From Gammaproteobacteria bacterium (GTDB lineage Bacteria; Pseudomonadota; Gammaproteobacteria; SZUA-152): a DNA stretch of 64,000 bases. The notes beneath the pieces were generated by a model, which was not told the origin of the DNA, ran no database searches, and saw only the letters and a list, made by a program, of their open reading frames with translations. The number at the start of each line of letters is the position of its first letter. Within the stretch, counting starts at the first letter, position 1. Positions 318 through 5,299 of this stretch are shown here, piece after piece. The stretch is from the NCBI GenBank assembly GCA_032250735.1, contig JAVVEP010000001.1:186001-250000 (forward strand), given 5' to 3'. A program made the position numbers and the translations under genes.

Positions 318-1265
318 ATGAGTGAAGATCGATCTAGTAGCGCTGCCGTTGGCAACGGACGGCAGCAACCTTCCTGGCTGGATAGACTCGGCCAGACCCT
401 CCTGAATAAAACCTTTTCCTCGCGACCCAAAGACCGGGACCAGCTGGATATGGTTTTACGCGACGCCCAGAAACATAACCTGCTGGACCATGATGCGCTG
501 ACGATGATCGAAGGCGTGTTGACCGTGTCCGACATGCAGGTGCGTGATGTGATGGTGCCGCGTTCGCAGATGATCGTGGTGGAAGAGGCGGCATCGCCGG
601 AGACCTTTCTGCCGGTGATTATCGAATCCGCCCATTCCCGTTTTCCGGTGGTGGGGGATACGCGCGATGAAATCGTCGGTATCCTGCTGGCAAAGGATCT
701 GCTGGCCTATATCGCTGAGCGCGATGCCAAGCCGGCAGAAGGGAATAGCCATAAGTTTAATCTGCGGGACATATTGCGGCCCGCCGTGTTTGTGCCTGAA
801 AGCAAGCGCCTGAATGTGTTGTTAAAGGATTTCCGCGCTAACCGTAATCACATGGCGATTGTTGTTGATGAATATGGCGGGGTGGCCGGACTGGTCACCA
901 TCGAGGATGTGCTGGAACAGATTGTGGGTGATATCGAAGACGAGCACGATTTTGAAGATGATGTATTTATCGTTAAACATTCGGATACTCATTACACCCT
1001 TAAGGCGCTGACGCCGGTCGAAGAATTTAATGAGTATTTCGAAGACACCCTGAGTGATGACGAATGCGATACCATCGGTGGCCTGATCATGCGCGAGTTC
1101 GGTCGCATGCCAGAGCGTGGTGAAAAGTGCCGGATCGGCCGCTACGGTTTCAAGGTGTTGCGGGCCGACAGTCGGCGCATCCATCTGCTGCAAATGAATA
1201 TTCTGGAAACGGATGAAGCTGAAATCGCACCCGGTAAGTCCACCACTAGTACTCCTTCAACCTAA
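318..1265 (+). CDS. corC: CorC/YbeX family CBS-domain protein
   Basis: 315 residues. Layout: N-terminal linker, tandem CBS domains at about residues 70-190 starting with the family motif DVMVPRSQM, the conserved VDEYGGVAGLVTIEDVLEQIVGDI stretch ending the second CBS domain, and a C-terminal CorC_HlyC transporter-associated domain (about 215-295). It has no membrane segments, as in the short YbeX form. YbeX/CorC is linked to magnesium/cobalt efflux and to ribosome metabolism with the neighbouring YbeY. Its last six codons and its stop lie inside the left arm of a 34-bp inverted repeat, so the C-terminal residues may be contributed by an inserted element. The start at 318 fits the family N-terminus; no strong ribosome-binding site is visible. 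Confidence 0.92.
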   Translation: MSEDRSSSAAVGNGRQQPSWLDRLGQTLLNKTFSSRPKDRDQLDMVLRDAQKHNLLDHDALTMIEGVLTVSDMQVRDVMVPRSQMIVVEEAASPETFLPVIIESAHSRFPVVGDTRDEIVGILLAKDLLAYIAERDAKPAEGNSHKFNLRDILRPAVFVPESKRLNVLLKDFRANRNHMAIVVDEYGGVAGLVTIEDVLEQIVGDIEDEHDFEDDVFIVKHSDTHYTLKALTPVEEFNEYFEDTLSDDECDTIGGLIMREFGRMPERGEKCRIGRYGFKVLRADSRRIHLLQMNILETDEAEIAPGKSTTSTPST

Positions 1266-1536
1266 TAATGATGGGCTCAGTTGGCCTGTCAGCGTTCAGG
1301 GCAAGGCGCGCCTCGCAACTAATGGCCGTAGCCCTTAGTAAGAGGCGCAACGCCGCCATGGACGCTGACAGGTCAACCCTTCGGGCGCTCCTGTGGTGTC
1401 CCGCTGCGCGTCGCCTAAAGCGCCTACTTTTGGTGCAGTGCTTGACAAGGACTATGGCCATTGCCTGCGCACTGCGCCTTGCCGCGAAACACCACAGGAA
1501 CGCTGAGCCCATCATTATTAGGTTGAAGGAGTACTA
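1247..1536. repeat. 290-bp nested inverted-repeat element
   Basis: A perfect 34-bp inverted repeat (1247-1280 against 1503-1536) encloses two further hairpins. The first pairs 1281-1295 with 1362-1376 (15 bp, one G-U pair) and continues inward as an imperfect stem, for example 1310-1314 with 1342-1346. The second pairs 1390-1399 with 1489-1498 (10 bp) and extends outward with one mismatch. A transcript would fold into a three-way junction. The left arm contains the end and stop codon of corC; the right arm contains AAGGAG (1526-1531), the only Shine-Dalgarno-like sequence before lnt. Because of the symmetry both strands have open frames of about 90 codons, which I regard as by-products. No target-site duplication is evident. 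Confidence 0.85.
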
Positions 1537-1545
1537 CAAAACCTG

Positions 1546-3132
1546 ATGTCGAACGTCGCCGTGTCTAGGGCTAGCCGATGTCCGGGGATGTGTGTCGGCT
1601 GGCGGGCATCGATCGTGGCCTTACTGGCCGGCGCGCTGCTGCCTCTGGCCTTCGCCCCGCTCGGCTGGTTTTTGTTGGCAGTCCTCTCTCCCGCTATTTT
1701 ATTCCTGTTGAGTTTTCGGGCCACACCGCGTCAGGCCTTGCTCCTTGGTTACAGTTTCGGGGTAGGCTTTTTTGGCGTAGGCGTCTCCTGGGTGGCGGTC
1801 AGCTTTTATCGCTTCGGCAGCATGGGTGGGGTGTTGTCCGTCGCCGCGACCTTGCTGTTCGTACTGTTTCTGGCGCTGTTCCCCGCGCTATTGACCTGGG
1901 TTGCCCGGCGTTTTTTTTCCGCACTGAGTCCCGCACGCTATTTTATGTTATTGATGCCGGCACTGTGGGTGCTGCTGGAATGGGTGCGCGGCTGGATTCT
2001 CACCGGCTTTCCCTGGCTGAACCTGGGTTACAGCCAAACCGATGCGCCGCTGGGCGGGCTGGCGCCGGTGCTCGGTGTGTATGGTATCTCCTGGGCGGTG
2101 GCCCTGACCGCGGGGCTGTTGCTGACCGCCTGGTGTGAAGATGGGCGCCGCCGCGTGGCGAGTCTTGGGGGTATGGTCTTGCTGTGGGCCGTTGCCGGAC
2201 TGTTATGGCCAGTGGGCTGGTCCGAGCCGCATGGCCGGCCGATCACCGCCAGCCTGATCCAGGGCAATGTGCCGCAGAATCTGAAATGGCGGCCGGAACA
2301 GCGTGGCCAGACCATCGATCTGTACACCCGCCTGAGCCGCGAACACTGGGATAGCGATATGGTGATCTGGCCGGAGACCGCACTGCCGGCCTATTTCCAT
2401 CAGGCGCAAAGTTTTTTACAGGGGCTGGCGCGCGAGGCGCGGGACAATGGTGGGGCGACCCTGCTGGTGGGGCTGCCGGTGATGGCCGAGACGGATAATA
2501 CGCGGTATTACAATGGCGTCGTGCGGGTAGGCACCGGTGATGATGAGTTCCCCTCGCAGATCTATCGAAAATCGCACCTGGTGCCTTTCGGTGAATACAT
2601 TCCGCTGCAATCGGTGCTGGGAAAATTATTGGATATCCTGCAGGTGCCGATGGCCAGCTTTAGCCGCGGTGCGGAGGTGCAGCCGCTGCTGACCCTGATC
2701 GATAAAAAAGATGCATCAGAGAATGAGCAACACCCGGTACAAAAGATTGCGGTGTCGATCTGTTACGAAGATGCCTTTGGTGAAGAGGTGATCCGCAATC
2801 TGCCGGCCGCGACCCTGCTGGTGAATGTCAGCAATGATGCCTGGTTCGGTGATTCCTTCGCCCCCCACCAGCATCTGCAAATGGCCCGTATGCGTAGCAT
2901 GGAGACCTCGCGACCGATGCTGCGGTCAACGAACAACGGCGTTTCCGCGATCATCGATCACCGCGGTGAGGTGCGGGCGTCCTCACCCCAGTTTGAGGTG
3001 GCCGTGCTGAATGGTGAGGTCCAGCCCCGTTCCGGTGCCACACCCTATGTGACGCTGGGCAACTGGCCGGTATTGTCCTGCCTGTTGCTGGTGTTTCTGT
3101 TTTGTGGGACTTGCCTGCGTCGACGTCAGTAG
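1546..3132 (+). CDS. lnt: Apolipoprotein N-acyltransferase
   Basis: 528 residues. Lnt adds the third acyl chain to the N-terminal cysteine of lipoproteins at the periplasmic face of the inner membrane. Several hydrophobic membrane segments fill about residues 20-215, followed by a carbon-nitrogen hydrolase domain (about 230-490). The catalytic triad is readable: Glu in WPETALPAY (near 276), Lys in YRKSHLVPFGEYIP (near 341) and Cys in SICYEDAFG (near 406). One further hydrophobic segment ends the protein. Start choice: ATG 1546 lies 14 bases after AAGGAG, which is a long spacing; ATG 1588 (MCVGW) directly before the first membrane segment is an alternative. Upstream is the inverted-repeat element, which may affect translation. 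Confidence 0.95.
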   Translation: MSNVAVSRASRCPGMCVGWRASIVALLAGALLPLAFAPLGWFLLAVLSPAILFLLSFRATPRQALLLGYSFGVGFFGVGVSWVAVSFYRFGSMGGVLSVAATLLFVLFLALFPALLTWVARRFFSALSPARYFMLLMPALWVLLEWVRGWILTGFPWLNLGYSQTDAPLGGLAPVLGVYGISWAVALTAGLLLTAWCEDGRRRVASLGGMVLLWAVAGLLWPVGWSEPHGRPITASLIQGNVPQNLKWRPEQRGQTIDLYTRLSREHWDSDMVIWPETALPAYFHQAQSFLQGLAREARDNGGATLLVGLPVMAETDNTRYYNGVVRVGTGDDEFPSQIYRKSHLVPFGEYIPLQSVLGKLLDILQVPMASFSRGAEVQPLLTLIDKKDASENEQHPVQKIAVSICYEDAFGEEVIRNLPAATLLVNVSNDAWFGDSFAPHQHLQMARMRSMETSRPMLRSTNNGVSAIIDHRGEVRASSPQFEVAVLNGEVQPRSGATPYVTLGNWPVLSCLLLVFLFCGTCLRRRQ

Positions 3133-4897: not shown

Positions 4898-5276
4898 GAA
4901 GTCGGCTGGACAGTCGCGGTATCTCCACTTTCGTTTTTACGGAAGGGGCGATACGGAGGAAAGTCCGGGCTCCATAGGGCAGAGTGCCAGGTAATACCTG
5001 GGGGGCGTGAGCCTACGGAAAGTGCAACAGAAAATACACCGCCGATGGCCTTCGGTTTTCGAACCGGGGCACAGGTAAGGTTGAAATGGTGCGGTAAGAG
5101 CGCACCGCGCTGTTGGTAACAACAGTGGCAGGGAAAACCCCACTCGGAGCAAGACCAAATAGGGGAACATTGGCGCGGCCCGCGTTGTTCCCGGGTAGGT
5201 TGCTTGAGCGACGCGGTGACGCGTTCGCCAGATGAATGACTGTTCACGACAGAACCCGGCTTACAGGCCGACTTCC
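4898..5276 (+). ncRNA. rnpB: RNase P RNA (type A)
   Basis: About 379 nt, close to the E. coli M1 RNA (377 nt). This is the catalytic RNA that processes tRNA 5' ends together with RnpA. The 5' end GAAGTCGGC pairs with the 3' end GCCGACTTC, forming helix P1. Universally conserved blocks are present: GAGGAAAGTCCGGGCTCC (near 4955-4972), the AGGGTG-like segment read here as CAGAGTGCCAGG, the GGTAAGAG segment near 5092, GCAAGACCAAATAGGGGAAC (near 5147) and the 3' ACAGAACCCGGCTTACA. Ends were set by P1 pairing. Location just upstream of the mraZ operon is common in gammaproteobacteria. Confidence 0.96.
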
Positions 5277-5299
5277 AACTTTCTTCGACCCGCATGTTC

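Follow-up and report, generated by a model that had tools for sequence, protein, structure and literature searches.

The 290-bp nested palindrome that separates corC from lnt in the window (the whole 64,000-nucleotide stretch of gammaproteobacterial DNA that we analysed) is most probably a MITE-like element, devoid of a transposase of its own and mobilised by an IS5-type enzyme, that belongs to an unnamed superfamily of cloverleaf-shaped repeats and later received a nested insertion of a 22-nt repeat. It is ordinary in kind, being a MITE, and unusual in architecture and spread, and the nested 22-nt repeat is its most interesting part.

Anatomy and covariation of the palindrome

The palindrome is genuine and stands well above chance expectation. 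Positions 1247-1336 and 1447-1536 form an inverted repeat of 90 nt that is 78% complementary, with the outermost 34 bp perfect, and folding of 1240-1545 as RNA yielded -182.7 kcal/mol compared to -103.4 +/- 4.9 in shuffled sequences (z = -16), none of the 100 shuffles being equally low; folded as DNA, the palindrome gave z = -14. An earlier sequence-only reading had described perfect 34-bp outer arms enclosing two inner hairpins, and both were recovered (34/34 bp paired; hairpins at 1281-1376 and ~1386-1502). Its predicted three-way junction has to be replaced by a four-way one, since the CCC-TTCG-GGG segment at 1377-1385 is a conserved mini-hairpin that adds an arm, and its second hairpin, correctly recognised as such, contains at 1412-1433 a separate 22-nt insertion that had gone undistinguished. 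The folding and Rfam searches that it had proposed gave the very stable fold above and no RNA family: against the Rfam 15 covariance models, 1247-1536 had no match, and within the window only rnpB was matched (RNase P RNA, class A, at 4898-5279, upstream of an mraZ-like gene; ordinary). Its remark that the repeat belongs to no recognised named family also stands, and the literature searched gave no description of the cloverleaf superfamily. A promoter and terminator scan gave nothing convincing.

Table. Features at and around the corC-lnt junction (coordinates of the window)
Feature	Position	Strand	Remarks
corC	318..1265	+	element supplies residues from ~310 on and the stop codon
Whole element (MITE-like cloverleaf, family A)	1247..1536	.	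6 full and 3 half copies in own genome; corC-lnt empty in relatives
Left outer arm	1247..1280	.	first two letters are the TA of the CTAG target; pairs with 1503-1536 at all 34 bp; covaries (41 copies)
92-aa frame through element	1268..1546	+	begins just after the corC stop; ends with the TGA of TGATG over the lnt ATG
Hairpin 1	1281..1376	.	inverted relative to hairpin 2; conserved tip ~1315-1338
Mini-hairpin CCC-TTCG-GGG	1377..1385	.	between hairpins 1 and 2; CCC/GGG kept in nearly all copies, loop varies
Hairpin 2	1386..1502 (start approximate)	.	core recurs in other subfamilies and Azotobacter
Nested 22-nt insertion CGCCTAAAGCGCCTACTTTTGG	1412..1433	+	between T1411 and T1434, inside hairpin 2
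Hairpin 2 conserved tip	within 1441-1465		TTGACAAGG-N-CCATTGCC
Hairpin 2 internal-loop motifs	1474-1483 for GCGCCTTGCC		GCGT/TGC, and GCGCCTTGCC
Right outer arm	1503..1536	.	ends with the second TA; pairs perfectly with left arm, 34 bp
AAGGAG, Shine-Dalgarno-like	1526..1531	+	in right arm, 14 nt before ATG 1546; the only one of lnt
lnt	1546..3132	+	overlaps or nearly abuts corC in relatives

Aligning 41 full-length copies from 14 genomes, that of the window host included, gave a cloverleaf consensus made up of an outer stem (34 bp in the window copy), hairpin 1, a CCC-N3/4-GGG mini-hairpin and hairpin 2, with 97.6% of the cells in standard pairs and two-sided changes at 58 of the 99 pairs. Cells with two-sided changes numbered 354, compared to 86 in shuffles, a control that leaves relatedness in place, and to 23-50 with slid partners, a control that retains it too. 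In the outer stem, where 24/30 pairs covary, a hand count from the covariation table gave ~236 two-sided and ~16 one-sided cells, with few G-U intermediates. Such an excess of two-sided changes points beyond selection on RNA pairing alone and suggests either DNA-level copying between the arms or a protein for which the ends must be identical. Hairpins 1 and 2 are mirror images with the same motifs in both, and the hairpin 2 motif, GCGTTGC-N5-TTGRCAAGG-N6/7-CCATTGCC-N5-...-GCGCCTTG, recurs across subfamilies with unrelated arms and stems, including that of Azotobacter, the hairpin tips being the part most conserved between subfamilies. The two halves of the element, each consisting of an arm and a hairpin, would have remained mirror images and complementary over long times, probably because one arm is copied from the other in the DNA, because the folded form is selected for, or both.

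Dispersal, target and candidate mobilising enzyme

BLASTN comparisons with the host and related genomes, one of the checks proposed in the sequence-only reading, revealed a dispersed family. With the element and its flanks as query, the host genome (3.43 Mb, 61 contigs) contains six full copies of ~268-313 bp and 78-100% identity, two of which are 91% identical at unrelated sites, as well as three half copies, each at a contig end; since these half copies stop where contigs end, the repeat evidently breaks the assembly. Matches were present in 37 of 144 related genomes (22 of 126 genera), with full-length copies at 74-76% in other families of the class (G080, G121 and G037), and some distant matches are confined to the 22-nt insert or to the tip of hairpin 2 (50 nt). 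Another genome of the same genus, G002, has 62 element termini, with dozens of near-identical ends; many of its termini lie near contig ends, the element fragmenting the assembly there. The host genome also carries a perfect ~35-bp palindrome of two outer arms only (L169, C24:22164-22199) and several single ends without a partner on C3, C8 and C9, which suggest arm-only or decayed forms. A search with a profile of the family detected no further copy elsewhere in the window and no copy at any of 80 named corC loci, and the plasmid, phage and E. coli collections lacked the element at blastn sensitivity.

Comparison of the corC-lnt junction between genomes indicates that the element is a recent insertion there. 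Nine genomes of the same genus (G001, G002 and G004-G010) have no element at this junction, the two genes overlapping or lying within ~90 nt, and in genomes of other genera of the family it was missing at every readable corC-lnt junction. The tenth congener, G011, the closest relative by corC DNA, has a different CTAG-bounded palindrome at corC-lnt with its own variant of the 22-mer (L187), and the junction would thus have taken two independent insertions, one in the window host and one in G011. When the element is excised from the window sequence, the end of corC again overlaps the start of lnt, as it does in relatives: with no TA kept, corC stops at TGATG, and with one TA kept its frame continues past the lnt ATG. 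The other copies in the host genome adjoin other genes; that on contig C5 lies precisely at the stop codon of atpC, ahead of the terminator of this gene, at a position where relatives are empty and have a single stop-codon site, and that on contig C35 also supplies a TAG stop. Most copies are bordered C-TA-G...C-TA-G, from which CTAG emerges as the target, often within a stop codon; in the window copy the left border is CTAG and the right border CTAC. TA flanks both sides (within CTAG in most copies), and the data fit either TA or CTAG as the duplication length. A sequence present at this site in all relatives, with no copies elsewhere and no covariation, which the sequence-only reading had named as speaking against both a mobile element and a conserved RNA, is the opposite of what we found on all three points.

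The element is short (290 bp), has no transposase gene (its 92-aa frame has no Pfam match), ends in perfect 34-bp terminal inverted repeats and belongs to a family with several dispersed copies and empty orthologous sites. In its general features it may resemble Correia/NEMIS or ERIC. It shares with bacterial MITEs of this sort (Correia/NEMIS, ERIC/RU-1, YPAL/RU-2, RUP; PMC2229807, PMC10969869) its small size, the lack of a transposase, terminal inverted repeats, TA at the ends, an intergenic location, stable folded transcripts and open frames fused to neighbours. Unlike those MITEs, the cloverleaf family is ~270-315 bp long and four-way, has arms that vary in sequence yet remain complementary, targets CTAG and has hairpin tips common to subfamilies with different ends.

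The evidence on what mobilises the element comes from its sister subfamilies. A blastn search with a superfamily member from G044 (L062) led to an element on a plasmid of Azotobacter chroococcum NCIMB 8003, and this one in turn to members on P. aeruginosa and Halomonas records. The Azotobacter element shares its hairpin core with the window family and starts with CTAGGGTCTGTTGACGTTTTGA, 22 nt of which are identical to the ends of an IS5-type insertion sequence on a different plasmid of the same strain; ends of this kind also border IS5-family transposases in Aeromonas, Paracoccus and Acinetobacter (ISAba31), and the two intact transposases scanned both belong to NF033580. Moreover, a 22-mer-bearing element of G011 has ends that match those of an IS5-type insertion sequence in G007, and IS5_3 insertion sequences with CTAG ends occur in relatives of the window host. 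Thus, the sister subfamilies (Azotobacter, G011) share with IS5-family insertion sequences (NCBIfam NF033580, e.g. ISAba31) both terminal repeats and CTAG/TA borders, whereas the cloverleaf element has no transposase and the GTACTCCTTCAAGG-type ends of the window subfamily match no insertion sequence found, the IS5_3 transposases of its carriers having other CTAG ends. An autonomous partner with matching ends was found for the sister subfamilies but, in 24 genomes, none for the window subfamily, nor any pair of family-A ends at the spacing of an insertion sequence; the host genome has no IS5_3-group transposase, and the perfect 34-bp arms are longer than the ends of the IS5-type elements encountered, which span 20-24 bp. 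Because the sister subfamilies share IS5-type ends, mobilisation of this type is supported for them, and we infer it for the window subfamily: an IS5-type DDE transposase would act in trans on the outer ends of the element, which would have inserted into a CTAG/CTAC tetranucleotide at corC-lnt with duplication of at least the central TA.

Two other accounts of the mobility of the family have to be weighed against this one. A single-strand element recognised by its hairpins and moved by a Y1/HUH transposase, in the manner of RAYT and REPIN, would suit the high conservation of the hairpin tips between subfamilies, the six Y1 transposases of the host genome and the REPIN-style look of palindromes with covarying arms. 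We consider it distinctly improbable, because all six Y1 genes lack element ends at their borders (their own ends are unrelated), the element runs CTAG...CTAG and has no GTAG tag, and sister subfamilies carry IS5 terminal repeats. REP/REPIN sequences are GTAG-tagged palindromes of 20-40 bp near RAYT genes (PMC3733652), and the window element is like REP/REPIN and RAYT systems (PMC3733652, PMC3116915) in being palindromic, intergenic, dispersed and non-autonomous; with its CTAG ends, its much greater length of 290 bp and all six Y1 genes elsewhere in the genome, it does not belong among them. An old repeat that spread by recombination or gene conversion and has ceased to move would, in turn, be in keeping with a host genome that has no transposase partner and with the solo ends and the arm-only palindrome, which suggest decay; this is unlikely, given that the corC-lnt site lacks this element in all congeners read, that two host copies at unrelated sites are 91% identical and that G002 has dozens of near-identical ends.

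The sequence-only reading had offered two explanations, a small non-autonomous mobile element and a structured RNA that controls lnt translation. The former has strong support from the dispersed copies, the empty sites, the CTAG target and the IS5-type ends in relatives of the element. A conserved RNA leader regulating lnt translation, akin to a riboswitch or thermosensor, could account for the very stable fold, the strong covariation and the burial of the lnt Shine-Dalgarno sequence, but as the reason for the existence of the element it is hardly credible: relatives have no such element at any readable corC-lnt junction, other copies adjoin atpC and other genes, Rfam gives no match, and the changes in the outer stem (~236 cells two-sided, ~16 one-sided, few G-U pairs) are better explained by DNA-level correction of the arms than by selection on RNA.

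The nested 22-nt repeat

The MITE-like element of the window would itself have been the target of a separate, later and site-specific insertion of a very small repeat. The 91%-identical copy on contig C10 lacks positions 1412-1433 and reads an uninterrupted GCGTTGC. Within the family, the 22-mer occupies four equivalent places in the two hairpins, with an orientation that is constant relative to GCGT^TGC or GCCT^TGC, and in L048 the hairpin core between two direct 22-mer inserts is lost, as if the two had recombined. Among 82 distinct contexts, the preceding base is T in 80 and the following base T in 76 (consensus GCNT^TGC), and no target duplication was seen. The 22-mer, CGCCTAAAGCGCCTACTGTTGG, also sits in host repeats unrelated to the cloverleaf element (loci L356-L425), and with up to two mismatches it was found in 16 of 369 Gammaproteobacteria, spanning 14 genera and reaching 42 copies per genome, compared to one for the reversed control. 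In G286 and G270 its flanks are near-identical, so it is the host repeat that has multiplied there and not the 22-mer. In G236, G380, G285 and G075, the 22-mer also lies inside another family of dispersed repeats, the core of which is GGCAACTGCTCCTGCATTGCTCTACCTCCTGCATCCATGCAG-like (loci L369, L385, L405, L412-L417 and L423). The 22-mer was absent from IMG/VR (exact match) and from E. coli, had only two weak matches in plasmids and had no occurrence in the literature searched.

Its length of ~20 nt, its many sites inside repeats and its presence or absence between host copies are the marks of a small dispersed repeat, a kind reportedly found in cyanobacteria (Elhai et al. 2008, as cited in PMC3116915). 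The cyanobacterial repeats are likewise ~20 nt long, lie inside other repeats and are apparently mobile and gene-less; compared by description, the 22-mer differs from them in its occurrence in Gammaproteobacteria, its length of 22 nt and its sharp target, GCNT^TGC. Judged by this distribution, the 22-mer acts like a tiny mobile repeat with a specific target site. Our tentative reading, a serious possibility that we would not yet call probable, is that CGCCTAAAGCGCCTACTGTTGG is an independent, gene-less mobile unit, specific for site and orientation, that is moved in trans by a putative enzyme across many gammaproteobacterial families and is often hosted in hairpin repeats such as the cloverleaf; it would then be among the smallest kinds of mobile DNA. 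Alternatively, the 22-mer may have spread via recombination between host repeats that have GCNTTGC in common.

Consequences for corC and lnt

By its insertion at this junction, the MITE-like element would have replaced the end of CorC, parted a pair of overlapping genes and enclosed the ribosome-binding site of lnt in a stable stem. Both contributions that the sequence-only reading had ascribed to the arms are real: the corC frame extends into the left arm, where TAA (1263-1265) ends it, and the right arm holds the only Shine-Dalgarno-like sequence of lnt, AAGGAG at 1526-1531. Because the CorC_HlyC domain reaches only to residue 294 of 315, the CorC core is intact and only the tail is new. In the full fold, AAGGAG has a predicted unpaired probability of <=0.001; with the left arm omitted, four of its six bases are predicted to be unpaired at >=0.84 and the other two at 0.11-0.34. 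Translation of lnt should accordingly require that the stem opens, and the buried Shine-Dalgarno sequence together with the lost corC overlap predicts a side effect of the insertion on lnt translation. The 92-aa frame is a possible termination-reinitiation path to lnt; that it has a coding function is doubtful, and we claim none, since copies of the family often contain open frames (1.15 per copy compared to 0.21 in mononucleotide shuffles).

The locus thus illustrates how an element can enter an overlapping gene pair, giving one protein a new end and burying the ribosome-binding site of the gene that follows, lnt. More broadly, a widespread cloverleaf class with strongly covarying arms is added to the bacterial mini-transposons, a group about whose parents and structure little is understood, and natural pairs that differ by the presence of the insert or of the element allow tests of how palindromic arms keep complementary. 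The 22-mer, for its part, makes an old question testable, namely whether gene-less repeats of ~20 nt move, and by what, because its target, its orientation and pairs with and without it are now defined.
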